Notes under the pieces: model-generated
Databases searched by the model: none
Told to the model about the DNA's origin: nothing
The model's input: only the letters and a program-made list of their open reading frames with translations
Virus record (IMG/VR): IMGVR_UViG_3300023179_000246
Span: 1-39,046 of that record
DNA length: 39,046 bases
Reading direction: 5' to 3' (one strand)
DNA from: a virus
In this document: in pieces, positions 95 to 39,046 of the stretch
How positions within the stretch are numbered: the first letter of the stretch is position 1
Layout of the letters: each line of letters starts with the position of its first letter
Made by a program: the position numbers and the translations under genes

Positions 95-684
95 CTACGC
101 AGCCGGGGATGCCCGCGTCGGTCTTTAACCCAGCGAACGCAAATCCGTATCAACCTGTTACAGGGAAAGGCATGCTTGAAGCGGATGTCGCAGGTGCTAC
201 CGTAGCTGCTAAGAATAATGCGGAAGCGTTGGGCGAATTAAAACAACAATTAAGTAGTTTGCCGGTTCTAGAAGATACTGTTAATAAATTAAAAGACCTT
301 GGAAACAAAGCTACCTATACAATAGTTGGCCAAGGTATTGACATGGCTAGACGTCAATTTGGTGCAGAGCCGAGGGAAGGTTCCATTGCTAGAGAGGAAT
401 ATATGGCAACGGTAAAAAATCAAGTGCTGCCGCTATTAAGGCAAACATTTGGAGCGCAGTTTACTGCTAAGGAGGGTGAAAGTTTGCTAGATACGTTAGG
501 AAATCCAAATTTAGCACCGCAAGAAAAGTCTGCGGTTCTTGATAGTTTTATTGAGCAAAAAAAGAAAAACGTGATTGCAAAGGCCTCGGAATCTGGCATT
601 GACCCTAATTCTTTGGGAATTAATTTTGAAAGCAAAGCCGATCCGATTGAGGCAGAAATGCGTAAAAGGGGTTTGTTAAAATAA
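1..684 (+). CDS. C-terminal part of virion-associated protein split by the contig ends
   Basis: This is the 3' part of the gene that begins at 38368. A reading frame opens at ATG 22, but the same codons are present in the right-end copy, so that ATG is internal. Joined across the repeat, the protein is about 421 residues. This part is rich in Gly, Pro and Ala at first, then charged and helical (from about residue 45 of the visible part), with no recognised catalytic motif. It is followed by the next gene in a TAATG overlap at 682-686. Its position between tail-hub and tailspike genes suggests a virion or DNA-ejection protein, like the internal proteins of podoviruses. That role is inferred from position only. 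The one-base G deletion in the left copy would break the frame upstream of codon 22 and is probably a sequencing or assembly error. Confidence 0.75.
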   Translation, partial: SRWQGAGMTLRGPNGEAAMPTSGGPLLPPPSSTQPGMPASVFNPANANPYQPVTGKGMLEADVAGATVAAKNNAEALGELKQQLSSLPVLEDTVNKLKDLGNKATYTIVGQGIDMARRQFGAEPREGSIAREEYMATVKNQVLPLLRQTFGAQFTAKEGESLLDTLGNPNLAPQEKSAVLDSFIEQKKKNVIAKASESGIDPNSLGINFESKADPIEAEMRKRGLLK

Positions 685-1922
685 TGCAAAACGTGTCTGC
701 CCTTAATGATAATGATTTAAAGGCGCTTTATGAAAAGCGATTTTCTGATATTTCTGATGAAGGGCTTAAAGTTTTGCGTCCCGCAGGGAATAAACGGGGT
801 GTCTTATCGGACGTTGTTCAGTCTTTTGGTAGTGGTGTTTTGCGTGGGACAGGGGATTTACTTGAAAACGCTGGGGCGGGGCTGGCTGCCACATTAGACG
901 GACAAGACTACGGTAGTTATTTTAAGGGTTTTATGCAGCCTCGGCAAACACCTATAAACAATGCAATAGACTCAATAGTTGGGACTAGGTATGAGCCACA
1001 AACTGATGCAGGAACAGTAGCAAATTTTGCAGGTAGTTTAGTTGGGCCTGGTGAAATTACTGGACTAATGAAGGCCAGTAAGCCAGTTATAGGCTTTAGC
1101 CGTGGGTTATTGGGAATGGTTGAAAAGCCAAAAACGGCAGAAGAATTGCAGTCCTTATATACGTCCGGGCGGGAGGCATTGAAGAACATAGATGTAAGTG
1201 GCCAACAAATTCAAGAAGGATTATATAAACCACTCGCCGATGATGTTTTTGCGCCTGAAAAAGTTCAACGGTTTAGAAACACCCAGCTTCCGACATATAA
1301 ACAGCAAATGCAAAATTATGCGCTACAAGGCACTAAAGCTGACAAGCTGGAAGAATATCGAAAAGATTTAAGCAACCTTCCCAATCCATTAGCCCAACCA
1401 ATTCGCAAGGGTATAGATAATTTTTACGAAACCTTAACTCTTCCTACAGAATTTCGGCAGGCATACGGCATTCTTGCGCGCGGGCAAAGTTTGCGAGATG
1501 CAGTTGAGGGAGCTAACACTATTACAGCAAAGCAAGGCGCATTAAAGCGTTTTGCGGCAACGCAGCGCGGACTTAATCCTGGCGATAGGGAAGAATTGTT
1601 GAGGCTGGCAGAGCCAGGCCTAATGGGCCGTTTAGCACAAGGCGGAAGTTCTGGGCTGGGTTTTTTTACGGCTGGTGCGGGTGCAATGGGAAACGTGGGG
1701 GGCATGTTAGCTAGCTCTGCTGCTCGCACAGGGTTAAGAAGTTTAGCGGACGAGCTTGCGCTGCAGAGACTAAATAGAGCGATAGAGTTGGTTCAATCTG
1801 GTGGTAAGCCTCTTACTGCATCTGAAAAACTTGGGATGGGTTTTCGGGGTTTGCTTGGTGACGCAGTAGATAGTGGAGCTGGACTCTTGAAAGTGTCAAA
1901 AAAAAGGAAAGGGTTGTTATAA
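684..1922 (+). CDS. Putative virion/ejection protein (412 aa)
   Basis: The ATG overlaps the upstream stop (TAATG). The protein is mostly helical, with Gly/Ala-rich semi-hydrophobic stretches around residues 50-75 (GSGVLRGTGDLLENAGAGLA), 110-135 and 320-345, and a basic tail (SKKRKG). Such amphipathic, glycine-rich segments are common in podovirus ejection proteins that enter the host envelope with the DNA, but I recognise no specific family. The stop overlaps the tailspike ATG at 1922, so the three genes are likely translationally coupled. Confidence 0.7.
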   Translation: MQNVSALNDNDLKALYEKRFSDISDEGLKVLRPAGNKRGVLSDVVQSFGSGVLRGTGDLLENAGAGLAATLDGQDYGSYFKGFMQPRQTPINNAIDSIVGTRYEPQTDAGTVANFAGSLVGPGEITGLMKASKPVIGFSRGLLGMVEKPKTAEELQSLYTSGREALKNIDVSGQQIQEGLYKPLADDVFAPEKVQRFRNTQLPTYKQQMQNYALQGTKADKLEEYRKDLSNLPNPLAQPIRKGIDNFYETLTLPTEFRQAYGILARGQSLRDAVEGANTITAKQGALKRFAATQRGLNPGDREELLRLAEPGLMGRLAQGGSSGLGFFTAGAGAMGNVGGMLASSAARTGLRSLADELALQRLNRAIELVQSGGKPLTASEKLGMGFRGLLGDAVDSGAGLLKVSKKRKGLL

Positions 1923-4039
1923 TGAAGAAGTATTTGTTAGCGTTAGCGTTTGTAGGTTTGGCGGGTTTCGCAGGCGCTCAGGGAATTCAAAACTACAGTA
2001 GCAATGCGGCAAGCAATACAGCGGTTGCACCTTATGGCTGGCCTACTGGAATGAACCCTGCCGACGTCAAGTTATCTGCACGACAAATGATGGCAGACAC
2101 GCGCGCGTGGTATGACGATGCACAATGGATAGATGGGGGATATGGTGTTGGTTACGTTAGCCCTACTGGCTTTCAGCTTACAGGCAATAGAGTATCAATT
2201 TTTACTCCTAGTCGGCGGGTAAAAGCGTTGTTTGGTAGCACAAACATTTACGGAACGATTACTAGCAGCAGCTTTGGTGGCACCAGCACTACGGTTATCA
2301 TCGCGCCAGATAGCGGAACACTTAGCAGCACCCTAAGCCGGATATGGTATGGTGCAGTTAGTAGTCAAAATAGCGCGGTGGTGTCCTCTACTCTGGGAAT
2401 GGGTAGTATTGGCGCTTGCGTGGCGCCGCAGTGCTACGATGTTACTCATCCTATGTTTGGATTGGTTGGCAACGGCAGCACCGACAACTACCAAGCACTC
2501 ATTAGTCTTACAAACTTTGTGTCTCCAACTAACGGTGTTACCCCTACGGTTTACTTCCCTGCTGGCAACTACCTTGTAAGCAATACGGCGTTGAATGGAA
2601 CTAATAGGGCGTGGTGGGTATCAAATACCTTTAATGTGATGGCTGATTGGGGCGCTCGGCTTAGCGTGCCGGTGAGTGGAACACGGTATATTGAAGTATC
2701 GGGCACGTCGGCTGGAGCGATTAGAGGCGTTGTGTATCGGTTTCCGCTGGTTGATGGGGTGAACTCCACATCGCGGAATAACAGAGCGGGGATTATGCTA
2801 ATCGGCGTGAATGACTTTATTGTTGACACTCCGCGCGTGTATAGAACTAACGGGGGAGGAATGTTTGTTAATAATAGCGTAAGTGGAACAATTCTAAATT
2901 GTTACGCAAATGGAACATTGGCAGATGGTTGTTCGACGATTAATGGTAGCCAAGATATTACATGGATTAATCCGCGCGCATATTTGACGGGCGATGATGG
3001 TATTTCTATTGTTGGTTATGCTGGAACGGGTTTCCCAATTAATCGTAACATTTCGATAATAGGGGGATTGGTGAGTTATCCAAGCGCTAGCTGTGTGACT
3101 GTTGCTGGTGCTGTTGGGGTCAAATTTGATGTCATGTGTGATGGTGGTAACTCGTCAGGGGGTGCTGTAAGAATTTTGAGCGATGCGTTTTATAACACGT
3201 TTGGTAATAACGGCGTGGTGGGTAATGCTGTGGTTGTAAATTCTAAAAACGTAGGTTGTAGAATTGCTGGCGATGTATCGAATACAAGTTTATATTGCGA
3301 CATAAATGGAACTGCCGTAGGGCGTGGGTTTACGGTTGGAAACTTTGGTTCGGTCGGGCCGCTGCCAGAGAATATTACTGTTGGTGGAAGGGTTACTAAT
3401 GCAGGGGCTATTGGTTTGGATATTGTAGGTGCCCGAAATGTTTCCGTGAATGGTTTTTCAGCAGTTAGCAATACGTCAATAGGCATAAATGTTGGAAGCA
3501 CGTCTGTATCCGGAACTACTGAGGGAATTGTAATGAATGGCATTTATGCGTTAAATAATTCTGGCGTTGGAACGCAAGATAATATCTCGGTGCAAAGCGC
3601 GACTAATGTTATTTTGAACGGTGTTGTTAGCTTTGATACGCGCGCAGTGGCATTGATTGACGAGCCAGTAGATATTTTTAGCTCTACGAACGTAGTGGTA
3701 AATAACATGCTGGGGTTAAAGAGTGGAACATATCGGTATAGTCCGCGTGTGCAAAACACAGCAACAAACGTGATAAGCACGGCTGGCGGTATCGTTTATA
3801 GCACTACCTTTGACCCACCTAGTGTTGCTGCTGGCGGCTTAACGTCTACAACAGTGACTGTTACGGGGGCTGCAACTGGCGATAGTGTGGAGGTTGGGTT
3901 TACGCGTCCATTGCAGGGAATTGTGTTAACCGGCGAAGTGACAACCGCAAACACTCTCAATATTATCTTTTACAACCCAACAGCAAGCGCGATTGACTTA
4001 GCTTCGGGCACAGTTAAAGGAATGGTAAGGAAGCAATAG
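1922..4039 (+). CDS. Tailspike / tail fibre with right-handed beta-helix and N-terminal signal peptide
   Basis: This 705-residue protein begins with a textbook Sec signal peptide: K2-K3, a hydrophobic core to about residue 17, then AGA before Gln20. Residues ~160-225 resemble the N-terminal part of the pectate-lyase superfamily beta-helix found in tailspikes (YDVTHPMFGLVGNGSTDN, then TVYFPAGNYLV). The next ~400 residues are Gly/Asn/Val-rich repeats typical of a beta-helix. The last ~70 residues (TVTVTGAATGDSVEVGF onward) resemble a common C-terminal fibre domain. A cell-surface polysaccharide-binding or depolymerising role is inferred; I cannot name a catalytic pair. A signal peptide on a tailspike is odd, because tails assemble in the cytoplasm. 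It overlaps the previous gene by one base. Confidence 0.8.
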   Translation: MKKYLLALAFVGLAGFAGAQGIQNYSSNAASNTAVAPYGWPTGMNPADVKLSARQMMADTRAWYDDAQWIDGGYGVGYVSPTGFQLTGNRVSIFTPSRRVKALFGSTNIYGTITSSSFGGTSTTVIIAPDSGTLSSTLSRIWYGAVSSQNSAVVSSTLGMGSIGACVAPQCYDVTHPMFGLVGNGSTDNYQALISLTNFVSPTNGVTPTVYFPAGNYLVSNTALNGTNRAWWVSNTFNVMADWGARLSVPVSGTRYIEVSGTSAGAIRGVVYRFPLVDGVNSTSRNNRAGIMLIGVNDFIVDTPRVYRTNGGGMFVNNSVSGTILNCYANGTLADGCSTINGSQDITWINPRAYLTGDDGISIVGYAGTGFPINRNISIIGGLVSYPSASCVTVAGAVGVKFDVMCDGGNSSGGAVRILSDAFYNTFGNNGVVGNAVVVNSKNVGCRIAGDVSNTSLYCDINGTAVGRGFTVGNFGSVGPLPENITVGGRVTNAGAIGLDIVGARNVSVNGFSAVSNTSIGINVGSTSVSGTTEGIVMNGIYALNNSGVGTQDNISVQSATNVILNGVVSFDTRAVALIDEPVDIFSSTNVVVNNMLGLKSGTYRYSPRVQNTATNVISTAGGIVYSTTFDPPSVAAGGLTSTTVTVTGAATGDSVEVGFTRPLQGIVLTGEVTTANTLNIIFYNPTASAIDLASGTVKGMVRKQ

Positions 4040-4093
4040 ATTGTTGACGAAGATAAATTGGCAATTCATTATAGAGCATAGAAAGGGCATCTT

Positions 4094-4513
4094 ATGAATA
4101 AATACTTACTTACATTAGCTGGATTGCTTTTGGTGTTGGGTGTAAACGCCCAAACAGTTGGAACATACCGGACTGTGCGGGATAATTTTGGTAATACGGT
4201 GGCTGATAGCTACCAAGTGACCAATTACACTAATAACTATGTTCTTAACGCGCCAAATGCCTATGCTAGCGCTACGGTGCCAACCAGTCTTACGGTGGTT
4301 TATTTTGCAGCAAGTGCGGGCTGTGACTTTCGGGTGCGGCCTAACGGTATTGGCCCTGTGGTGAGTTCTAGCAATGTGACAAACGGCAGTGCGTGGATGC
4401 TTAATCCAGCCAAGGGCTTTGGAACCGTTGGGGTCACTTATTTTGGGTTACAAAGCGACAGTGCCAGCACAAATAATCCTTGTATTGTGACTATGACAGG
4501 CTACGGGAGATAA
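4094..4513 (+). CDS. Small secreted-type beta-rich protein in the fibre cluster
   Basis: This 139-residue protein begins with a signal peptide (N2-K3, hydrophobic core, then VNA before Gln20). The mature part is rich in Thr, Ser, Asn, Gly and aromatic residues and looks all-beta. One cysteine lies in SAGCDFRVRPNG and another in NPCIVTMTGYG, so a disulfide is possible after export. A ribosome site (GAAAGGGC) lies at 4081-4088, six bases before the ATG. It sits between the tailspike and another signal-peptide protein. The role is unknown; a fibre accessory or host-surface protein is possible. Confidence 0.7.
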   Translation: MNKYLLTLAGLLLVLGVNAQTVGTYRTVRDNFGNTVADSYQVTNYTNNYVLNAPNAYASATVPTSLTVVYFAASAGCDFRVRPNGIGPVVSSSNVTNGSAWMLNPAKGFGTVGVTYFGLQSDSASTNNPCIVTMTGYGR

Positions 4514-4516
4514 ATT

Positions 4517-5236
4517 ATGAAAATGTTTGCATTAGTTATAGGAGCATTGTGTTTAGCTGGAACAAGTATTGCCCAATCTCCCGGCGGTTTTTCGTATCGC
4601 AACTCTGTTGGTGCAAACAGTAGTTTTTTAGGCACAAACATTCAGGGCGTTGTAAAAACTCCTCCGTATAAAAGCGGCTATTCTTATCCTGCTTTAGCTT
4701 TTGAAAACACTGCGGGGACAGGTAGTAACGGCTATGTGTCCGGCACAATATATTACTCGCCGTTGCTGGTAAACAACCGCGTTACTATTACCAGTATCAC
4801 AACTCGCATTACCGTGCCTACCACAAGCGCCAGTATGGTCGTGGGGATTTATGCGGCTGACCAAGCAACCTCCTCTCCGACGACGCTTTTAACTACTAGT
4901 AATGTGCAGAATATCAACACAAACGCTTATATCACATTTACACTTAGCCCGAGCGTTACAGTGGAGCCTAACACAACGTACTACATTGGTGCTTTGGCTG
5001 ACGGAGGAACAACAATGCCTTCTATTTGGATAAATAACATTGCAAACTGTGTGTCGTTTTTTAGGGGACGTGTTGGAGGATTTACGCCCAGCCAGCTTTT
5101 GACTACGGGTGGTTGCGGTTTTATTGGAACCGGGGCTACGCTTTTAACTGGGTTGTCCAGCACCGTGCCTGTTAGCACATTGTCGCTTGCAAACGGCACC
5201 TTTGGAACGCCCGCGTTTACATTTCAGGTGCCGTAA
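4517..5236 (+). CDS. Fibre-like beta-sandwich protein with signal peptide
   Basis: This 239-residue protein begins with a signal peptide that ends SIA before Gln20. The segment around residues 95-165 (SMVVGIYAADQATSSPTTLL, then TVEPNTTYYIGALADGG) matches a beta-sandwich motif I know from phage fibre C-termini, where hydrophobic and Thr-rich strands alternate. It lies three bases after the previous stop and two bases before the next gene, so it belongs to the same transcript. Receptor or glycan binding is plausible. The signal peptide instead suggests export to the periplasm or cell surface. Confidence 0.7.
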   Translation: MKMFALVIGALCLAGTSIAQSPGGFSYRNSVGANSSFLGTNIQGVVKTPPYKSGYSYPALAFENTAGTGSNGYVSGTIYYSPLLVNNRVTITSITTRITVPTTSASMVVGIYAADQATSSPTTLLTTSNVQNINTNAYITFTLSPSVTVEPNTTYYIGALADGGTTMPSIWINNIANCVSFFRGRVGGFTPSQLLTTGGCGFIGTGATLLTGLSSTVPVSTLSLANGTFGTPAFTFQVP

Positions 5237-5238
5237 TT

Positions 5239-5508
5239 ATGGCGCGGATAACTAAACCGCTTTATACAGACCGTGATTACTTAGAAGCTCGGTTTGCTTC
5301 GTTGGAGAAGAAGTTGGATGTAATACATCAGGAGTTTTCCGAAAAGTTTGGCAATGTGGATAAACGCATTGATGTGGTAGAAAAAGACGTTAATGGGGCT
5401 AAGGTGTACGGCAAGGTAGCTTTGGGCGCAGCTACCACGCTAGGGGCGTTAATTACATGGATAGCCGATGTAGGTAGCAAGTTGGCTGAGTTATTGCCGC
5501 ATAAATAA
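5239..5508 (+). CDS. XhlA-like coiled-coil membrane protein (holin-associated?)
   Basis: This 89-residue protein has a coiled coil at residues ~12-52 (charged heptads, LEKKLDVIHQEFSEKFGNVDKRID) and one membrane segment at ~57-82, ending in a short basic tail. This layout resembles small XhlA-type haemolysin/holin-associated proteins, which sit in the inner membrane with a cytoplasmic coil. It follows the fibre gene by two bases and precedes the candidate endolysin, which fits a lysis cassette. The family call rests on architecture, so it could also be an unrelated coiled-coil membrane protein. Confidence 0.6.
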   Translation: MARITKPLYTDRDYLEARFASLEKKLDVIHQEFSEKFGNVDKRIDVVEKDVNGAKVYGKVALGAATTLGALITWIADVGSKLAELLPHK

Positions 5509-5596
5509 CACATTTGTTTCGTGGAACTTCAGACGGTAGACAGCCTTGATATGACAACACAATATATAGTGGGTAGCATCGTTACTTAAATACAAA

Positions 5597-5632
5597 TTGA
5601 CGACCTATTGTTTTATAACAATACTTTCAGCA
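5597..5632 (+). promoter_or_regulatory. Candidate promoter with an inverted repeat; leaderless transcript
   Basis: A -35 TTGACG (5597-5602) and a -10 AATACT (5620-5625) are 17 bases apart. A perfect inverted repeat ATTGTT-TTAT-AACAAT (5607-5622) fills the spacer and looks like an operator. The predicted start is about 5632, exactly at the ATG of the next gene. Confidence 0.45.
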
Positions 5633-6054
5633 TGAGAATTAAAGCAATCCTTCAGAGACGTGGAGAGAAGTATGGGGCATGCTTTGGCGAATTGAATATC
5701 CCGCAGCTAGGAGTGCGGCTTTATACGCTAGAAGATGCATGGAATGGCAACAAGGTTGGCGCTAGCTGCATTCCAACGGGCTTATACGCGGTTGTGCCTC
5801 ATGGATGGGATAAGGCAAGCAAGGTGACCAGAAAGCGCTGCTGGCGGCTTTTGGATGTGCCAAATCGCACGGCCATTCTTATTCATGCAGGCAATACGGT
5901 CGCGGACACCGAAGGGTGCGTGCTGGTAGGGACGAAGGCGCCTGTGATTGATGATGTGAACGGCACGGTGACCTTGCCGCAAAGCAAGGTGGCCATGGAT
6001 TTGCTGCGCGCTAAGATTGGTGAGCAAGGGTTTCAGCTGGAGGTGAAGTCATGA
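5632..6054 (+). CDS. DUF5675-like protein, candidate cell-wall/lysis gene
   Basis: The sequence matches the DUF5675 pattern as I know it: LYTLEDAWNGNKVGASCIPTG, then RLLDVPNRTAILIHAGN and a DTEGCVLVG motif (residues ~80-100). Members of this family are common in phage and prophage lysis regions; their activity is not established to my knowledge. I chose ATG 5632 (140 residues) over the in-frame TTG at 5608, because neither has a Shine-Dalgarno site and the promoter just upstream would give a transcript beginning at 5632. A strong terminator follows at 6083-6109. It is the best endolysin-like candidate in the window, since no classical lysozyme, amidase or transglycosylase was seen. Confidence 0.7.
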   Translation: MRIKAILQRRGEKYGACFGELNIPQLGVRLYTLEDAWNGNKVGASCIPTGLYAVVPHGWDKASKVTRKRCWRLLDVPNRTAILIHAGNTVADTEGCVLVGTKAPVIDDVNGTVTLPQSKVAMDLLRAKIGEQGFQLEVKS

Positions 6055-7678: not shown

Positions 7679-9157
7679 ATGGTGGACATGGCAAGGCTGC
7701 TGCTATTCCCGTTGGTTGTGCTTTGGATGGCGGTCTGGTGGACGTTAGGCACACTATGGTGGCTGTTAGGGCTGCCGTTGAGGGGTAATAAAGCCGCGGA
7801 TAGTCATGGCACCGCGCAATGGGCAACTTGGAAGGAGTTACGCAAGGCGGGGCACTTCGAGCGCAATGGATGGTTGGTGGGCTTTTTGCCGTATCATAAG
7901 TGGCTGCCTAGCTTGGGGCGGAAGGTTTATACCACGCCGCAGGCAAGCGTGATTTGTATTGCACCAAAAGGTCAAGGGAAGACGCAAAGTCTTATATCGG
8001 CTATTAGAGACTTTGCCCAACGGCCTGCGGGAAGACAACCTGATTTGCTGGTAAGCGACCCTGCCAATGATATAGAACCCGCAACCCGTGAATACTGCGC
8101 TGAGCGCGGATACAAGGTAATTATTTTGGACGTGCGCGACCCTGCGCGTGGGCATCGCTACAACGTGCTGTCCATTCTTCAGCGGCACAGTATGAGCTTT
8201 GAGGCCGATGCTGACCAGATAGCAAGTCTGATTATGCCTGACGATGCTGGCAAGGGTGAACCGCATTTTCAAGAGATAGGCAGGATGCTCTTGGTGGGTG
8301 CCATCATGCATGTGCTGACGACGGGCGGCATGACGTTATTTGATGTGGTGCAGGCGTTGACCGTTGACACGGATGCGCGGGAAAAGTTGTTTGAGGGAAT
8401 GAAAACAAGCCCTAACCCTCGCACAAGGCAGGCGGTGAACGCTTTTTTGGCGGCTGGGGAGCGCGAACGTGGTAGTTTTATGACGACCATGAGCCGCAAG
8501 CTATCGGTATGGCTGCGGCGCTCATTTAAGGAAATGACGGCCCCGGACGGGATAGATTGGAAGTGGGAGGACGTGTTTGTAAGCCCTGACCCCATTATTT
8601 GCTACGTTATAACGGGCCTTCAGCCAGAGGAGGGGGCTTTTGCGCGGTTGGTATTTGGCAATGCCATCAATACGCGGCGGCGCATGTTTAACCAGATGCA
8701 TCGGGGAACAAACTTCCCAAAAGAGTTTTGCTTGCTTGCTGATGAAATGCAGGTGATGGGGCATTGCAACGCGATTGTGGACGCTAATAATGAATTGAGG
8801 AAGGCGCGCACTAGCACCTTTACCACGTTTTTAAGCTGGTCTTTATTATTTCAGATTTACCCGCAGGCGAAAACCCTGATTGCCAATAGCAACCTACTTG
8901 TATTTGGCGGTAGCAACGACATGGAGGCTTATAGCGAAAGTAGCAGTATTATCGGTGATATAACGGTGGAGAGTGCCAGCCGCAGCGAGAATGATAGGGG
9001 AGAAAGTGAAAGCCGCAGCGAGCAAGGGCGACGGCTGGCTAAGGCCGATGAAATCAGGCGTTTGAAATTTGGAGAGGTATTATACTTATCAGGGCGTTTG
9101 GATAGTAGATTAAAAACCGCTTGGAAGATTGGTAAGGGTGGGATAGAGTTTAGGTAG
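7679..9157 (+). CDS. Type IV coupling protein (VirD4/TraG family)
   Basis: This 492-residue protein has hydrophobic helices at residues ~4-35, then a VirD4/TraG-like ATPase domain. Walker A is APKGQGKT (95-102), followed by LLVSDPANDIE (123-133), which matches the family's DpKGE region. The Walker-B-like LLADEMQVMG is at 352-361, and the C-terminal TraG portion includes FLSWSLLFQIYPQAK. In conjugation this inner-membrane ATPase delivers the relaxase-DNA complex to a type IV secretion channel. No VirB/Trb channel genes are present. It faces the relaxase gene at 9276-10697 tail to tail. At 492 residues it is somewhat shorter than many VirD4 proteins, yet both key motifs are intact. Confidence 0.88.
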   Translation: MVDMARLLLFPLVVLWMAVWWTLGTLWWLLGLPLRGNKAADSHGTAQWATWKELRKAGHFERNGWLVGFLPYHKWLPSLGRKVYTTPQASVICIAPKGQGKTQSLISAIRDFAQRPAGRQPDLLVSDPANDIEPATREYCAERGYKVIILDVRDPARGHRYNVLSILQRHSMSFEADADQIASLIMPDDAGKGEPHFQEIGRMLLVGAIMHVLTTGGMTLFDVVQALTVDTDAREKLFEGMKTSPNPRTRQAVNAFLAAGERERGSFMTTMSRKLSVWLRRSFKEMTAPDGIDWKWEDVFVSPDPIICYVITGLQPEEGAFARLVFGNAINTRRRMFNQMHRGTNFPKEFCLLADEMQVMGHCNAIVDANNELRKARTSTFTTFLSWSLLFQIYPQAKTLIANSNLLVFGGSNDMEAYSESSSIIGDITVESASRSENDRGESESRSEQGRRLAKADEIRRLKFGEVLYLSGRLDSRLKTAWKIGKGGIEFR

Positions 9158-9185
9158 GTGGACGGCTCCTGATGTTGCACCAACC

Positions 9186-9250
9186 CCCGCACCTAACGGC
9201 CGTGGATGCGGTGCTAGGTATTTTTCACAATACTATGGTGCGGGTCTTTT
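9186..9250 (+). terminator. Candidate terminator between convergent coupling-protein and relaxase genes
   Basis: CCCGCACC (9186-9193) and GGTGCGGG (9237-9244) form an 8-bp stem followed by TCTTTTT. A competing shorter stem (ACCTA / TAGGT, followed by ATTTTT) lies inside. A small GTGAC-GTTTT-GTCAC hairpin follows at 9257-9271, just before the relaxase stop. Confidence 0.5.
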
Positions 9251-9275
9251 TAGTTTGTGACGTTTTGTCACGACC

Positions 9276-10697
9276 TCATTTCTGCCACCCCAAATCCTTC
9301 TGCATATCCTCCCATTCCTTCACTTTCTCGGTTTCTCCCTTCAATACTAGCAAGTCGCGGTATTCCTCGCCGTTAATCGAGGCTTCCTTATAGGCTTCTT
9401 CAATCTGGGCAACCGTTATCTCGCGGGCATTGATAAAAGCCTGACGGTCAAACAACTGCATAGCACCTTGCATTTCTTGCTCGGTGCCATAGATAGCCAC
9501 AATTTCCTTAAAGCGGTTTGCGGCTATTTCATACTCAGTTGCAGCCTGTTTGGCTCCGTCAACCACGCTTTTTGCCATTTGATAGGCTTCAGTAACATCG
9601 CGCTGTTTCATATCTCGTGCAAACACAGCAGAGTTCAACTCGTGCTGGGCCTGTTCCGCCTGTTTGCGGGTTGGTGACTTGTAGGAAAGGCCCCATATAT
9701 TGATTTCAAAACCCTTTAAACCACTATCGGTTGTATAGGTTTTCATCCGCTGCTCGGCCATAGCTTGCCGCATCGTAAGCGGGATAAGCTCGTTTTTCTC
9801 CATGTCGTTTGCGCGAGTGACCGCCTTTTCAGAAGCGGACTTGGCTGCCTCGGCTGAGGCTTTTGCTGCGTCTCGGCGTGCGATGGCTTGTTCTATGCGG
9901 CGCTTCTCCTTGAGGGCATCTACGGCGGTGCGCGCGTAGATGGCGCCAGAGGGTGCTACCAGTTCCATATCTTCCTCGGAGTGTCGGCTATCAGGAAGCT
10001 CTATTGTAAGCGTCCGTTCGGCTTCACGTGGAACATCTACGTTGCTTAGCGGTGCATTAGGTTCTACATCGTCAAGACCATTTTCGTGGGGCCGCGAAAA
10101 TGGTTCTAGCGGTATTCCGTGCTGCTCTGCAAGGCGTTCCATTGCTTTTTTGCGGGCGTCTGCAAAGCTGATGGTAGCTTCCTGCCCAGCCTCAAGCATG
10201 ACTTGGTTGTGCACTTCCTCCCACACCAGCTTGAGCTTGGCGGTGCTGCCCCGCTTGGTTGTGCCAAACACGCGCGGCCCAGTGACTTCGCGGTGGATTT
10301 TCTCGGCATCAACAAAAATAAATTGAGCATGGGGGTTTTCGTTACTTTTCTTTCCTTCATGGATAGCGAAAAAATAACTCGCTTTTCCTTCGCTAATGCG
10401 GTGTCCAAAGCGGCGGCATGCTTTGGCCCAATCGTCTAAGGTAAGTTCAACGGGCAGCGCGATGATAAACTTGTCGCACACCCTGCCGTTGGCGCGTAGC
10501 TCCTCGGTGCGGCGGTTGAGGAAGGCTTGCATGTTGCGCTTTGATTTGGAGGCGCCATCGGTTATTGTGAAACGCTCGGAATACGAATAGATGCACTCCG
10601 GTTTGCGGAGCAGATAGCTAAGGTGGTTTGCGGCGGCATCTGGCCTTGTTAGCTTTGGCTTGCTAAGGTAGTCATGTTGGAAGTAGGGGATAGCCAT
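9276..10697 (-). CDS. Relaxase, MobA/MobL (MOBQ-like), with coiled-coil C-terminus
   Basis: This 473-residue protein has a MobA/MobL-type N-terminal domain. AANHLSYLLRKPE (22-34) resembles the family's opening motif. DKFIIALPVELTLDDW (75-90) and H113...NPHAQFIFVD (121-130) match the strand carrying the metal-binding histidines, and STAKLKLVWEEVHNQVMLEAG fits the region after it. The usual third histidine of the HxH pair is Gln125. Residues ~250-410 are charged and likely coiled coil. A relaxase nicks oriT and carries the strand through the coupling protein. The probable catalytic Tyr is in the YSYSERF segment (37-43). A hairpin-rich intergenic region upstream is a candidate oriT. Confidence 0.85.
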   Translation of the reverse strand: MAIPYFQHDYLSKPKLTRPDAAANHLSYLLRKPECIYSYSERFTITDGASKSKRNMQAFLNRRTEELRANGRVCDKFIIALPVELTLDDWAKACRRFGHRISEGKASYFFAIHEGKKSNENPHAQFIFVDAEKIHREVTGPRVFGTTKRGSTAKLKLVWEEVHNQVMLEAGQEATISFADARKKAMERLAEQHGIPLEPFSRPHENGLDDVEPNAPLSNVDVPREAERTLTIELPDSRHSEEDMELVAPSGAIYARTAVDALKEKRRIEQAIARRDAAKASAEAAKSASEKAVTRANDMEKNELIPLTMRQAMAEQRMKTYTTDSGLKGFEINIWGLSYKSPTRKQAEQAQHELNSAVFARDMKQRDVTEAYQMAKSVVDGAKQAATEYEIAANRFKEIVAIYGTEQEMQGAMQLFDRQAFINAREITVAQIEEAYKEASINGEEYRDLLVLKGETEKVKEWEDMQKDLGWQK

Positions 10698-11925: not shown

Positions 11926-12301
11926 TGATGAACACCAACGCTTGCGTGAAGGTGTCGCCGGTGAGTATAAGATAGCCCTCTACCGCCAGTATGGAGAGGC
12001 CGAGGCCGCGCACTTCTTGCAGGTTGACTTGTCCACCCTAAAACGGTGGCGGCGCGAAGGCAAGGTGCCTTACATCAACATGGCGGAGCGCAAAGTTCGC
12101 TATCTTGGCGTCCACATCGTAGATTTGCTTATCAAGGGTTCAGCATGGGCCGATACACCAAACGCGAATGCCAATACGGGGAATACTGGGTCGGGCAGCG
12201 GGCAGGCTCCCCAGCATACTACCGCTGCTGGATGGAAGGCCGAACCCTCCGCCGCGCTACGCTTGGCACAACAGACTTTGAAGAAGCCAAGCAGCGGTTA
12301 G
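11912..12301 (+). CDS. MerR-type helix-turn-helix protein, candidate excisionase
   Basis: GTG 11912 has GGAGG five bases upstream, better than TTG 11900. Residues ~25-72 hold an HTH_17/excisionase-like domain: IALYRQYGEAEAAHFLQVDL, TLKRWRREGKVPYI, then KVRYLGVHIVDLL. The rest is a low-complexity Thr/Asn/Gly/Ser/Ala tail that is read out of frame over the integrase N-terminus (157-bp overlap, 12145-12301). The overlap may mean this tail is incidental. Proteins of this kind direct integrase toward excision or repress the int operon. The integrase follows on the same transcript. Confidence 0.65.
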   Translation: MAGSDDEHQRLREGVAGEYKIALYRQYGEAEAAHFLQVDLSTLKRWRREGKVPYINMAERKVRYLGVHIVDLLIKGSAWADTPNANANTGNTGSGSGQAPQHTTAAGWKAEPSAALRLAQQTLKKPSSG

Positions 12302-13236
12302 AGGAGTGGTTTATTGCCAACCGGCGTGTTGAGAACGAAACGGCAACGGATGCGGTATTGGCTGACGTGCTGCGTCGGTATTGGGAAGGGCACGCAAAGA
12401 ACGTGGCATCCGCCCCCACCATCAAAGGCCAGCTGCGCTATTGGTTGGAATTCCATGGTGCTGCCAGCGTCAAGGATGCCTGCCACCATGATAGGCTGGC
12501 GCAATTCATAACCGCACTTAAAGACCGTGGGCTTGCCCCCAGCACCGTCAACCACACTCTCATGGCGGGTAAGGCTGCACTGCGGATGGCTTGGAAGCGG
12601 GGCGAGCTGGTGAGCGTGCCGCACATCCCCATGGTGCCAGTCGGTGAGCAAGAGCCGATGGGCAGGCCGCTGACCGTGGAGGAAGTCCGTAGGTTGTTGC
12701 GCGAGTGTGAGGCAACCCCTCACCTGTGGCGGCTGTGCGTGTGGCTGATAGCTACGGCGGCGCGTCCAGCGGCAATCTTGGAGCTTGATTGGGCGCAGGT
12801 GCGGCATGACGAGGGGCTGGTGTATCTTAACCCCATAGGAAGGGCGCAGAACAAGAAACGGCGCCCTGTGGTTCGCTTGCCTACGCAGCTATCAAAAAAC
12901 AGCGGTAGCGGCCATGTGGTGGCTTGGCGTGGTAAGCCTGTCGGTTCTGGCATAACGGCGTGGCGGAAGGCGCGGGAGAGGGCGGGGCTTGGGCAGGATG
13001 TTACGCTGTACAGCTTTCGACACACGATGGGGCGGTGGATGCGGGCGCGGGGTGTGCCGGAGGAACAGATAAAGATGCAGCTCGGCCATGCAACCAGCGG
13101 GGAGACGTGGCGCTACATTGGGTTTGCGCCAAATTATCTTGACAAGGCTTGCGCGGCGATTGAAGCCTACCTTGACTTGGTGCTAGACGATTGCGATTCA
13201 GCAGGTGCACTGACAATCTCGGAGTTGCGGGTGTAG
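12145..13236 (+). CDS. int: Tyrosine recombinase / phage integrase
   Basis: ATG 12145 follows AAGGG by several bases; the longer frame from 12046 would place 33 extra residues over the HTH gene. In the 363-residue product, the arm/core-binding part spans ~1-165. Catalytic motifs are R207 (IATAARPAAILELDW), the KKRR region (237-240), YSFRHTMGRW with R292-H293 (the first His of HxxR is Tyr289, a substitution seen in other integrases), LGH (313-315) and nucleophile Y324 (TWRYIGF). It catalyses site-specific recombination between attP and a host tRNA-Gly gene. Its last codons and stop overlap a tRNA-Gly half at 13227. The gene is more GC-rich than the virion genes. Confidence 0.92.
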   Translation: MGRYTKRECQYGEYWVGQRAGSPAYYRCWMEGRTLRRATLGTTDFEEAKQRLEEWFIANRRVENETATDAVLADVLRRYWEGHAKNVASAPTIKGQLRYWLEFHGAASVKDACHHDRLAQFITALKDRGLAPSTVNHTLMAGKAALRMAWKRGELVSVPHIPMVPVGEQEPMGRPLTVEEVRRLLRECEATPHLWRLCVWLIATAARPAAILELDWAQVRHDEGLVYLNPIGRAQNKKRRPVVRLPTQLSKNSGSGHVVAWRGKPVGSGITAWRKARERAGLGQDVTLYSFRHTMGRWMRARGVPEEQIKMQLGHATSGETWRYIGFAPNYLDKACAAIEAYLDLVLDDCDSAGALTISELRV

Positions 13237-28785: not shown

Positions 28786-30864
28786 ATGCCAAGTTTTACA
28801 GGACGCCCCCTTACGCAAGACGAGATTGTTCAAACCTGTTTATCTGAATTGTCTCAAGCCCGCACAATGTCGGGCGAAATAGCAAAAGACCGCGAAGATG
28901 CGCTGAAGGCTTATGAGCAGCAGCGTTACGGTGACGAAATGGAGGGCCAAAGCCAATATGTCGCGTCTGATGTGCGGGATACGGTGGAATCAATCCTTCC
29001 CGATATCGTTGAGATTTTTGTAGCTGGCGATCATCCGGTAGAATTTGAACCCCAGAGTGATAAAGATGTAGAACAGGCAGAGCTTGAGACGGATGCCGTG
29101 CGCCATGTATTTTTGCAGCAAAACGACGGGTTTATGATTACCTATTCGGCGGTAAAAGACGCGATGCTGTCCAAGAATGCGTATTGCTATGTTGGTTGGG
29201 AGACGGATGTAAAATACAGCCGCGAGGAATATAGGGGCTTGAGTGAGGAGCAAATGGTGCTGCTGTCTCAAGACCCAAAAATAGAGATACAGGCGGTGAG
29301 TAGCGAGGACGTAGCAACTGTCTTGCCGGATGGCATGCAGGGTGTTGTCAAGCAATATGATGTGCTGGTGAGAAAGAGCCGCGAAGTCGGGCAAGTTTGT
29401 GTTTATCCATTGCCGCCGGAGCGTGTGCACATAAACCGCCACCACAGTAGTGTGGACTTACAGAGCGCCCGTTGTGTGATTTACGAAGAACTCCTGATGG
29501 CAGGCGATTTAGTAGAGCAGGGCTACCCAATAGAGTTGGTAGAGCAGATACCAAACTATCAATGGTATAGCCGGAGCGAAGAAGTAACCCGCTGGCGTAA
29601 AGAAGGGGCGACGGGCTTTCGCGACGATGCGGGCACCGACAGCAGCCGCAGGATTGTGCAAGTGCTGAACTGCTACGTTTGTATAGATGCTGACGGCGAT
29701 GGGGTGCCAGAGTTGCGATTGGTGCGAATTGGTGGCGAGAACAGTCGGCTGGTACTGGAAAATAAGGAAATAGACCGCGTCCCGATAGTGAGCGGCGGAA
29801 TGATAATTAATACGCACAAGCACTTTGGGGTTGCTATCGCAGATATACTCCAAGATATTCAACGCATTCGCACTACGGTTATGCGACAGGCGTTAAACAA
29901 TATTTATTTCAACCAGTTTCCTGTGACTTTTGTTGAAGATGCGGCGGCTAATGAAAACACCTTTCAAGATTTGTTAAGTCGTCGGCCTGCTGGGTTTGTA
30001 AGAGTTAATAATCTAATGGGCGTGCGGACGGAACCGCCTGTGGCCTTGATTGACCAGAGCATCAACATGCTTGCGGCGCTTGATACAATAAAGGAAGACC
30101 GTGTTGGCGTTAGTCGGGAGACGCAGGGATTAGACCCCAAGAGCATTAGTGATGCTACTAATCTTGTTGGTATGACCGTGCTTAGCAGAAGCCAATCGCG
30201 CATTAAGATGATGGCGCGGGTATTTGCCGAGACATTTTTCAAAAACCTAATGCTGGCAATCCATGAATTGCTGATGAAGAACGGAAGCGGCTTCCCAATT
30301 CGTCGGCAGCAGGCGTTCGTTACTGTAAACCCGCGTGAATGGGTAGAGCGTGAACGTATGGTGGTGAAAGTCGGCACTGGTTATAGCAATCAAATGGAGA
30401 AGATTGGCAGAGCGGAAGCTACGCTGGCTAAACAAGAGAAATTGGCAATGTCTGGGGCTATGGGTAGACTCATAACAGAACAAAACATTTATAGCGGTCT
30501 TGCAGAGTGGAGCAAGGCAAGCGGCGTGCCCGTGAGCAAATTCTTCTCGAATCCGGACAAGATGCCTCCTGCACCAGAACCACAGCCGGACGCACAGACA
30601 ATGGCGGTAATGGTCGCGCAAAAGGAAGCTGAAGTGAAGGCGATGAAAACAGCTGCGGATACGAAGCTAGAGATACAGCAGCACAACGACAAAGTAGCGC
30701 TAGAACGTGAACGTATTGCAAGTAACCACTATCTGAAAGCGAAGGAATTAGAGCTGAAATATAAAGTGACTAATGTGCAAGAAGAACCAAAGGAAAGTGA
30801 GTTGGATGAACCGATGGAAGCAAATGCTGGGCGAGTTGACGAAGCCGTGGAATCCGCCAACTAA
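28786..30864 (+). CDS. Portal protein
   Basis: The 692-residue product resembles podovirus P22/SU10-type portals. The N-terminus (LSQARTMSGEIAKDREDALK then YEQQRYGDEMEG) and VASDVRDTVESILPDIVEIF match the clip/stem entrance pattern of that group. The stretch AIADILQDIQRIRTTVMRQALNNIYFNQ is the stem/crown helix, and the C-terminal ~110 residues are Gln/Lys-rich and helical. It forms the dodecameric DNA channel at the head vertex. A GCATGCC start at 28786 has no strong Shine-Dalgarno site. Confidence 0.9.
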   Translation: MPSFTGRPLTQDEIVQTCLSELSQARTMSGEIAKDREDALKAYEQQRYGDEMEGQSQYVASDVRDTVESILPDIVEIFVAGDHPVEFEPQSDKDVEQAELETDAVRHVFLQQNDGFMITYSAVKDAMLSKNAYCYVGWETDVKYSREEYRGLSEEQMVLLSQDPKIEIQAVSSEDVATVLPDGMQGVVKQYDVLVRKSREVGQVCVYPLPPERVHINRHHSSVDLQSARCVIYEELLMAGDLVEQGYPIELVEQIPNYQWYSRSEEVTRWRKEGATGFRDDAGTDSSRRIVQVLNCYVCIDADGDGVPELRLVRIGGENSRLVLENKEIDRVPIVSGGMIINTHKHFGVAIADILQDIQRIRTTVMRQALNNIYFNQFPVTFVEDAAANENTFQDLLSRRPAGFVRVNNLMGVRTEPPVALIDQSINMLAALDTIKEDRVGVSRETQGLDPKSISDATNLVGMTVLSRSQSRIKMMARVFAETFFKNLMLAIHELLMKNGSGFPIRRQQAFVTVNPREWVERERMVVKVGTGYSNQMEKIGRAEATLAKQEKLAMSGAMGRLITEQNIYSGLAEWSKASGVPVSKFFSNPDKMPPAPEPQPDAQTMAVMVAQKEAEVKAMKTAADTKLEIQQHNDKVALERERIASNHYLKAKELELKYKVTNVQEEPKESELDEPMEANAGRVDEAVESAN

Positions 30865-32158: not shown

Positions 32159-33106
32159 ATGCCTTATCCAACCAACACCTACTCCCGCTACGCGGTTGTA
32201 GGCAACCGGGAAGACTTGGAAAATACGATTTATAACGTATCTCCATTTGAAACCCCTGTCATGAACGCCATCGGGCGGACTGACGTAACCAACACACTGC
32301 ACGAATGGCAGACTGATACCATCCGTGCGCCGCGCACTAACGCGCAAATCGAAGGCGATACTTTTACGAACGTCGCCCGCGTGCCAACCACTCGTCTGTC
32401 TAACTGGACTCAAATCTTTACGGACACGATTGGAGTCACTGGCACACAACTGGCGATGAAACCCGCTGGTCGTGCTGATGAAATGACCTACCAGCTGTCG
32501 CTGGCAATGAAAGCGTTGAAGACCGATGTTGAAACCGCAATCCTTGCTAACGTAGGCGGTGGTAACGGCACTGAAAATAGCACTGGCCGGACAATGCGTG
32601 GTTTGCCGAGCTGGCTTGCGAGCAACGTATCTGCGGCTGCTAACGGCGCTAACGGTGCTTCTGGCAGTGCCCGCACTGATGGCGACCAACGTGCGTTGAC
32701 TGAAGACCTCCTTAAAAACGTGCTGCGCTCTGTTTACGATAACAGCGGTGAAGTTCCAAGCATGATTGTGGCTGGTTCTTTCAACCGTAGTGTAATCAGT
32801 AGCACCTTTACAGGCGGCAACAACCGCATGCAAAGCATGGAAAAGGCCAAGCTGGACACCACTATCAAAATTTACGAAGGTGATTTTGGTGTGTATCAAA
32901 TCGTGCCTGACCGCTTTGTGCGGACACGCGACCTGTTTGTGCTGAACCCAGACTACTTGTCTTTGGGTTATCTCCGCACATGGCGCGTGGAAGACTTGGC
33001 TAAAACTTCTGATACTGACCAGAAGGCTATCATTGCCGAGTGCACGCTGATTGTCCGCAACGAAAGAGCGCATGGTGCGGTTTTTGACCTTACCACTAGC
33101 GCTTAA
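32159..33106 (+). CDS. Major capsid protein (DUF5309-like, HK97-type fold)
   Basis: The 315-residue product fits the DUF5309/SU10-type capsid pattern: NREDLENTIYNVSPFETPVM near residue 20, DTIGVTGTQLAMKPAGRADE, TMRGLPSWL, DGDQRALTEDLLKNVLRSVY, and VPDRFVRTRDLFVLNPDYLS near the end. It assembles the icosahedral shell. It follows the scaffold gene by 25 bases. Confidence 0.88.
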   Translation: MPYPTNTYSRYAVVGNREDLENTIYNVSPFETPVMNAIGRTDVTNTLHEWQTDTIRAPRTNAQIEGDTFTNVARVPTTRLSNWTQIFTDTIGVTGTQLAMKPAGRADEMTYQLSLAMKALKTDVETAILANVGGGNGTENSTGRTMRGLPSWLASNVSAAANGANGASGSARTDGDQRALTEDLLKNVLRSVYDNSGEVPSMIVAGSFNRSVISSTFTGGNNRMQSMEKAKLDTTIKIYEGDFGVYQIVPDRFVRTRDLFVLNPDYLSLGYLRTWRVEDLAKTSDTDQKAIIAECTLIVRNERAHGAVFDLTTSA

Positions 33107-33135: not shown

Positions 33136-34008
33136 ATGAAGGCAACTAAACTCCTTCTGGCCCTCGGCCTGATGATGATTAGCGCGGTTGGTCATGCACA
33201 GTCGTTTGTTTGGAACACCAATACTGGTGATTCAACGGGCGGCTTGGCAGCTCAAAGCCAAACCGATAACTCTCAACCGTTTGTGATTGACCGCCAAGGT
33301 TTTGTGCGGATTGCCCCATTGTTCATTGTTCAAGATGATTTTGGGTCTTCTCAAATCACAAGCGCGACATGGCTGGGCTATGGCGGGACTTCTGGCGGGG
33401 CTACCCCCACCATTATCACGTCGCAGTCGGGCGTAGTGTCCATGACGAGCGGCAACAGCCAGGCCAGCGCAGCAGCGGGTAACAGTCAGATAAACGCGGC
33501 TGTGCCTATGTTCCGCGCGGCTAATGGCGGGTTGTCGTTTGAAACTCGGCTGATGGCTGCGACTAGCGATAGTCAAGTTATCTTCGCTGGGTTAATGGAT
33601 GCCACCACCTCTACAATCCCAATGCAAATCAGTGCGACAAGCCTTACTTCGCGCACATTTACAGCGGGAACGGCTAACTTTGTAGGGTTGGTGTTTGATA
33701 ACCGTAGTTCCATTAGCCAAACCGTCGCTCGTAGCGGCTGGGTTGGAATGGGGAACCGTAACGGTGTAAGCAGCAGCGCTGTGTTTACCGGCGTGCCTGT
33801 GACTGCGAATGCATGGGTGACTCTGCGGGTCAACGTGGCGCCAACTGGCCGTGCTGACTACTTCATCAATGGACGACTGGTCGGCAATACTGCTGCGGGC
33901 ACGGTGAACAGTAGCACGCTGCTGGTTCCTGCGGTGGGTGTGATGAACACTAACAGCACGACTCGTAACGTGTTGGTTGACTATATCCAAGCCTCTCAAC
34001 GGCGCTAG
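33136..34008 (+). CDS. Signal-peptide ConA/LamG-like protein next to the capsid gene
   Basis: The 290-residue product begins with a signal peptide (K2, K5, hydrophobic core, then GHA before Gln). The mature part resembles a jellyroll of ConA/LamG type: FETRLMAATSDSQVIFAGLM, NFVGLVFDNRSS, AWVTLRVNVAPTGRADYFIN, GRLVGNTAAG. A capsid decoration or glycan-binding protein is expected at this position, but an exported precursor would not normally reach a cytoplasmic procapsid. GAAAGGG at 33122-33128 precedes the ATG by seven bases. A terminator-like hairpin follows. Confidence 0.75.
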   Translation: MKATKLLLALGLMMISAVGHAQSFVWNTNTGDSTGGLAAQSQTDNSQPFVIDRQGFVRIAPLFIVQDDFGSSQITSATWLGYGGTSGGATPTIITSQSGVVSMTSGNSQASAAAGNSQINAAVPMFRAANGGLSFETRLMAATSDSQVIFAGLMDATTSTIPMQISATSLTSRTFTAGTANFVGLVFDNRSSISQTVARSGWVGMGNRNGVSSSAVFTGVPVTANAWVTLRVNVAPTGRADYFINGRLVGNTAAGTVNSSTLLVPAVGVMNTNSTTRNVLVDYIQASQRR

Positions 34009-38367: not shown

Positions 38368-39046
38368 ATGGGCTTGTTGTCGTATCTTGGTGAAATGATT
38401 ACGGGCGGAAATAAACAATCGCCAATGGGCGGCTTGTTGGCGGGTGGGCAACAACCTCGTGGGTTGCTGGGAAGTATTGGGCCGACTCCATTTAACCCCG
38501 ATGGTGACATGGTTAGGGGGTTGGGCGGCGTAAATACTGGTTCGGCTATGCAGCAGCCTGCTCCGGCGGAGAATGATGGTTTTAAGCAGGCTTTGATGGC
38601 GCTGACTGATGCTGTTGGTAATTGGGGGAAGACACCACAGGAAATTGCACAGACGGAGCTTTTAAGGGCGCAAGCGGCTGCGCAACGCAATCAAATTGGG
38701 CCGTTTGGCGGTGATAGCTTTGATAACCAGTTAGTGCGGCAACGGGCGCGTGAATACATACAGGCAGGATATCCGCAGCAGGAAGCAATAAGCCGCGCCG
38801 CTAACGATGTGCTGGGGACGAAGCAGGATTATGTGGCTGACCCATCAAATCCGGGGGCACTGATCCCTGTGGGGCGGAAGGCGTTGCCGCCAATTAGCGG
38901 CCAGACGCAGGCAATGACACAGATGGTGCCAGTAGTAACGCAGTTGCCTCAAGGTGGGCAAGGGGCGGGCATGACGCTTAGAGGCCCTAACGGCGAGGCG
39001 GCTATGCCTACCAGCGGGGGGCCACTGTTGCCTCCGCCGTCGTAGG
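38368..39046 (+). CDS. N-terminal part of virion-associated protein (continues at position 1)
   Basis: The protein begins MGLLSYLGEMITGGNKQSPM and is Gly/Gln/Ala-rich. It runs off the right edge inside the terminal repeat and continues in frame at position ~22. The full protein is about 421 residues. The final three bases (AGG) do not match the left copy (CTA) and look like contig-end error. Confidence 0.8.
38949..39043. repeat. Terminal direct repeat, right copy
   Basis: This 95-base copy repeats the first 94 bases of the window, with one extra G. Collapsing both gives a unit of about 38,949 bases. Confidence 0.85.

Follow-up and report, generated by a model that had tools for sequence, protein, structure and literature searches.

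The window analysed here is a whole virus record from IMG/VR, 39,046 bp in length, and the genes given below with both end coordinates lie on its + strand. The ORF ending at 39045 repeats the sequence with which the ORF at 22 begins, and with this terminal repeat the genome looks like a complete, terminally overlapping one. Its phage type is fixed by a predicted SU10-type major capsid protein at 32159..33106 (PF17236, 3.6e-91; phrog_1328, 3.3e-97), and family matches point to a podovirus portal together with tail adaptor, nozzle-type and ejection-type proteins. The portal shares ~30% identity with the portals of 289 phage records. Single-protein scans of viral contigs gave no relatives via the nozzle, spike, 290-aa or 239-aa proteins, and no close relative of the phage as a whole was found for this metagenomic record. 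The genome also has a tyrosine integrase-type gene, which suggests a temperate lifestyle. The only recognisable tail spike of this short-tailed phage is a tailspike-like protein of 705 aa at 1922..4039, assigned from anchor homology, a weak β-helix match and a C-terminal match. Directly upstream is a 412-aa gene with no family match (684..1922), whose stop codon is overlapped by the tailspike ATG at 1922 (TAATG). Genes for a 139-aa protein (4094..4513) and a 239-aa protein (4517..5236) follow, and immediately 3' to the capsid gene lies one for a 290-aa protein (33136..34008).

These four proteins share a predicted N-terminal Sec signal peptide. A home-made rule that considers n-region charge, the h-region and the residues at −3 and −1 was applied to all window ORFs ≥60 aa long in either orientation, alternative starts included, and it passes exactly four ORFs, at 1922, 4094, 4517 and 33136. 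The tailspike begins with MKKYLLALAFVGLAGFAGA/QG (signal peptide at 1922..1978, predicted signal peptidase I site A19/Q20), the 139-aa protein with MNKYLLTLAGLLLVLGVNA/QT (4094-4150), the 239-aa protein with MKMFALVIGALCLAGTSIA/QS (4517-4573), and the 290-aa protein with MKATKLLLALGLMMISAVGHA/QS (33136-33198), a signal of the same kind as the other three for which the rule prefers an AVG/H site and the alternative GHA/Q was read by eye. In the first three the n-region has one or two Lys, the core is uncharged with a best 9-mer Kyte-Doolittle mean of 2.66-2.87, position −1 is Ala and residue 20 is Gln. The sequence-only reading had described these three genes as having a basic N-terminus, a hydrophobic core and Gln at residue 20, and both the residues and the hydrophobicity values agree, as do the ORF translations with the starts, lengths and N-termini that it gave; all three also pass signal-peptide prediction with a cleavage site by the home-made rule. 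It had further called the sites AxA-type, which is true of the tailspike, with Ala at −3, but not of the 139-aa protein (Val) or the 239-aa protein (Ser), while Ala at −1 is found in all. Signal peptidase I tolerates Val and Ser at −3. Its list of three such genes was correct but incomplete, since the fourth at 33136 had been overlooked.

By the home-made rule, a basic n-region, an uncharged hydrophobic core and small residues at −3 and −1, as expected of a Sec/signal peptidase I signal, are found in four of four genes, and none of the four N-termini has a lipobox Cys at +1 (signal peptidase II) or a twin Arg (Tat). A SAR sequence, meaning a hydrophobic N-terminus without a cleavage c-region, was also considered and was ruled out by the c-regions present in the four. 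Export of these proteins is thus a well-supported prediction. Among eight textbook E. coli signal peptides used as a control, seven pass the rule, with PhoA missed; six of the eight pass the stricter h-region cut-off that was used to survey related loci, where MalE fails. Shuffles of the same 40 residues pass the rule in 0.2-1.3% of cases. In that survey, which took in ~250 related loci, the stricter cut-off lets through 5 of 2,909 ORFs; because genuine signals can escape the rule, this background rate is a lower bound. It gives P ~5e-6 for four or more signal peptide genes in ~62, a value that assumes independent genes and is a guide only. An artefact might be suspected, given that the record is metagenomic and that no close relatives of the virus were found: the hydrophobic starts could be due to chance, the start codons could be wrong or the contig could be chimaeric. 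However, the starts are set by upstream stops and Shine-Dalgarno-like sites, and the four cases fall in two gene clusters with the low P value given above, so we see very little chance that the signals are spurious.

Immediately behind the tailspike signal peptide lies an N-terminal virion-anchor domain (residues 20-148, 1979..2365), recognised from homology to gp54 of Pelagibacter phage HTVC106P, from a profile and from 80 IMG/VR loci. The alignment pairs tailspike residues 22-150 with the N-terminal part of gp54, beginning at gp54 residue 5 (E 2e-18), and the profile matches the tailspike at 1.7e-36, the only significant copy in the window; homology over the domain places the window spike in the anchor family. 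In seven named phages (HTVC106P and six more) the anchor starts proteins that lack a signal peptide, and in the six the in-frame sequence upstream ends within a few codons. The 80 IMG/VR loci, which are the best matches to the domain and not a random sample, with many near-identical, give the same picture: the anchor begins the protein with no signal peptide, typically as MAGIKDYSSTAGNNT ('MAGIKDYSST'), and in nearly all the frame is closed by a stop only a few codons upstream. A single locus of the 80 has a long open frame upstream, yet its ATG is at the usual place. When related loci are pooled, 116 of the 117 ORFs with the domain carry it inside their first 12 residues, and in eight bacterial genomes it is again N-terminal, without a signal peptide. 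The window spike departs from this in that a signal peptide precedes the anchor in the precursor, although the anchor would stand at the extreme N-terminus were the signal peptide cleaved. The junction reads MKKYLLALAFVGLAGFAGA/QGIQNYSSNAASNT, with the signal peptide ending exactly where the anchor begins, and the predicted cleavage would give QGIQNYSS (QGIQNYSSN in the window), compared to M(A)GIKDYSS in relatives. Because predicted cleavage would restore the usual anchor N-terminus, it appears that a virion protein acquired a signal peptide that is then cut off, and this coincidence is the strongest argument for such an addition and removal.

We then considered whether a spike with a full anchor could be made without the signal peptide. 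Within the first 60 codons, the in-frame ATG, GTG or TTG triplets after codon 1 are TTG codons 5 and 13, both within the signal peptide, and ATG codons 44, 56 and 57, all within the anchor. Comparison of the profile with the window ORFs found no paralogue of the anchor lacking a signal peptide. With no usable internal start and a single anchor copy, a full-anchor spike free of the signal peptide could therefore arise only via proteolysis. A search with the DNA pattern for A-Q-G-I-[KQ]-[DN]-Y-S, a narrow test in which Gln and some codons are fixed, found no second signal-peptide-bearing anchor. The signal peptide anatomy, the anchor homology, its exact placement, the lack of a usable start for a form without the signal peptide and the lack of a paralogue in the window can all be read directly from the DNA.

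The explanation that we favour, with a probability of roughly 0.5, is that a true virion spike gained a cleavable Sec signal peptide, is exported, and joins the tails at lysis. SecYEG would export the spike chain and signal peptidase I would cut after Ala19, leaving a mature spike that starts QGIQNYSS and so has a normal anchor N-terminus. The mature spike would fold in the periplasm, where disulphide bonds might form, and lysis would mix periplasm and cytoplasm, allowing the anchor to dock on tails assembled beforehand in the cytoplasm. A cytoplasmic tail and a periplasmic spike could meet only at lysis, and late docking is plausible because P22 spikes add to otherwise complete particles. From the features described above we infer that the spike is exported, cleaved, folded under oxidising conditions and docked late, and we propose that the remaining three signals of this kind are attached to accessory proteins with no recognised fold. 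The sequence-only reading had inferred export followed by cell-surface coating, joining of the virion on lysis, or another role such as membrane anchoring. The anchor, its placement and its single copy favour joining at lysis, the intact cleavage regions disfavour permanent membrane anchoring, and surface coating is possible, especially by the 139-, 239- and 290-aa proteins.

Virion assembly is normally cytoplasmic, and fast-folding trimers could escape export. This would suit a scheme in which the signal peptides are uncleaved or only partly used, the cytoplasmic precursor enters virions, and its hydrophobic N-terminus acts as a membrane anchor or penetration aid. Such a scheme sits poorly with complete c-regions that have the −3/−1 consensus, it places extra hydrophobic residues before an anchor that is elsewhere N-terminal, and it has no need for four separate signal peptides; we consider it improbable. 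Since signal peptides can be leaky, the spike might also have both fates, with one pool exported and another retained in the cytoplasm and entering virions after trimming by a different protease. An internal start to supply the form without a signal peptide is absent, however, and we rate this dual fate lower still.

Folding of the spike in the periplasm, as the favoured explanation would have it, can be considered in light of the spike body and its Cys content. Residues 281-368 give a weak right-handed β-helix match (PF13229, E 0.0079, below the curated cut-off), the C-terminal 83 residues are common to Aeromonas phage 4_4512, and no solved structure matches the tailspike sequence at E ≤ 1. 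AlphaFold2 run without an alignment returned poor models, with pLDDT values of 33.6 for the mature spike and 38.7 for the mature 239-aa protein. The mature parts hold 8 Cys in the tailspike, 2 each in the 139-aa and 239-aa proteins and none in the 290-aa protein, all even numbers, and those of the spike lie in close pairs (166/171, 327/337, 391/406 and 446/459). Among 59 distinct complete anchor fibres without a signal peptide, the Cys count is odd in 30, even in 24 and zero in 5. Per 100 aa, the window spike has 1.17 Cys, above the highest value in those fibres (0.96; n=59) and well above their median of 0.26. This pattern is suggestive and hints at an oxidising compartment, but it is statistically weak, given the tiny signal-peptide-bearing sample.

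The 139-, 239- and 290-aa proteins contain no recognised virion domain. Residues 70-171 of the 239-aa protein match phrog_25864, a family of unknown function, and no relatives of the 139-aa and 290-aa proteins were found. The idea that the 139-aa protein might belong with a family of small structural proteins encoded close to the capsid gene was dropped after a profile test. A search of 274 genomes, from the class of one Variovorax prophage host and of little weight for want of a positive control, gave no relatives of the 290-aa or 239-aa proteins, and an SU10-capsid prophage in another genome of that host's order has no convincing signal peptide gene in its structural part.

Beyond the window, predicted signal peptides on fibre-type phage proteins recur. 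The SU10-type IMG/VR contig L077 encodes, between its capsid and tail-adaptor genes, a 281-aa protein with a strong signal peptide and tail-fibre-type repeats, which phrog_31472 covers from its first residue, and the SU10-type contig L054 encodes a 269-aa signal-peptide-bearing protein between a fibre gene and a nozzle gene. In cultured Pseudomonas phages, a signal peptide and fibre repeats are combined in AF_025 of phage AF (MKRFLLAMALLPALAFA/GPSD) and in its relative gp17 of phage AH02 (MKKLIMVLALLSPMCFA/APYD), the latter missed by our rule. The mature parts of AF_025, AH02 gp17 (by eye) and the L077 protein have 2, 2 and 6 Cys, respectively. These three proteins resemble those of the window in their Sec-type signal, which is followed by the tail-fibre-type repeats, but they share no sequence relationship with the four window proteins, lack the anchor domain and are at most candidate virion proteins. 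AF_025 may not be a virion part, because its gene lies downstream of the lysis genes and apart from the AF tail spike. This last case would fit a different role for the window proteins, in which export, during infection or lysogeny, would bring them to the cell envelope as their site of action or release them as free enzymes or decoys, and they are not virion parts; receptor masking, superinfection exclusion and polysaccharide trimming would all be covered. The export signals look genuine, the tyrosine integrase-type gene suggests a temperate phage, three of the four proteins are without a virion domain, and the tailspike-like enzyme WceF of Pantoea stewartii is exported by the bacterium with a Tat signal (PMC7949094). 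We nonetheless consider such a role unlikely, if the most credible of the alternatives, as the spike keeps an anchor that would have no use away from the virion, its signal peptide ends exactly at the anchor start, and the window has no second anchor copy to serve the virion.

Docking of an exported spike at lysis, the explanation we prefer, can be compared with several known systems. Fibres of HTVC106P (gp54), KLEP18-1 (gp22), Venkman (gp50) and the Manatee Spring phages have an N-terminal anchor homologous to that of the window spike, but they begin with the anchor, have no signal peptide, and differ from the window spike in their distal parts. In KLEP18-1 and two Manatee Spring phages the anchor gene comes directly after genes in structural or ejection positions, as in the window, where the 412-aa gene is placed similarly. 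P22-type tailspikes are likewise podovirus spikes with an N-terminal attachment domain, and the window spike may also share their β-helix body; the P22 spike, unlike the window spike as we read it, lacks a signal peptide and folds in the cytoplasm. Filamentous phage coat proteins use the host export route, and these phages assemble at the membrane. Phage lysis proteins with signal sequences, namely SAR endolysins and spanins, take that route too (PMC3765740 for a SAR endolysin and Rz1) but are not virion parts, and neither these nor the filamentous coat proteins equate to a tailed-phage spike. Xanthomonas phage PBR31 has a signal-peptide-bearing esterase (PMC10975493). The phage-fibre-like MAT fibres of Bdellovibrio carry signal peptides (PMC10769870) and, with WceF, are exported as we propose for the window spike, but both are cellular proteins and WceF uses Tat. 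We found no published description, in the open-licence literature, of a tailed-phage spike made via a signal peptide. The available portions of papers on phiCbK, Caulobacter phage Circe, rumen phages and DGR phages do not describe fibre signal peptides, and that of the DGR-phage paper reports phage DGR proteins without them.

The prevailing view is that tailed-phage virions are finished in the cytoplasm. We put at somewhat less than even odds the broader proposal that a tail spike, and perhaps other outer virion proteins, travels via Sec, matures through host peptidase and periplasmic oxidation and completes virions at lysis, and that this arose more than once in tailed phages. If so, a spike that crosses the membrane and is cut by the host before docking would add an extra assembly compartment, disulphide-stabilised receptor-binding proteins would become possible, and the spike could already work on the envelope or on receptors while the cell is still intact. 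Since predicted cleavage restores the anchor N-terminus exactly, the proposal gives one predicted mature N-terminus for the spike and is directly testable.

Predicted signal peptides are also encoded in other viral loci (coordinates are those of each locus), in proteins unrelated in sequence to those of the window phage in the first four cases that follow. In one SU10-type contig (L077), a protein with a predicted signal peptide and tail-fibre-type repeats (7746-8591) is encoded with the capsid gene on one side and a tail-adaptor gene on the other, and a GDSL-lipase-type protein is encoded nearby (9027-10298; PF13472, 6.3e-18). In another (L054), a 269-aa protein with a predicted signal peptide (about 5006-5815) is flanked by a fibre gene and a nozzle gene. 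Two cultured Pseudomonas phages, AF and AH02, encode mutually related proteins that combine a predicted signal peptide with fibre repeats, AF_025 (11947-12969) and gp17 (about 12001-13098), each annotated as hypothetical. Finally, Manatee Spring phage MW202481 has two proteins with strong predicted signal peptides (29123-29629 and 29502-30608), for which annotation is absent or the name is doubtful.

The window phage itself encodes a VirD4/TraG-type coupling protein (7679-9157, plus strand; PF02534, 7.3e-32) and a MobA/MobL-type relaxase (9276-10697, minus strand; PF03389, 2.5e-6). With a tyrosine-type integrase in their vicinity (12046-13236), these genes suggest that this is possibly a mobilisable phage. 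The start of the record (1 to about 80) overlaps with its end (roughly the final 80 bases), a pattern expected of a complete, terminally redundant genome or of a circular assembly.
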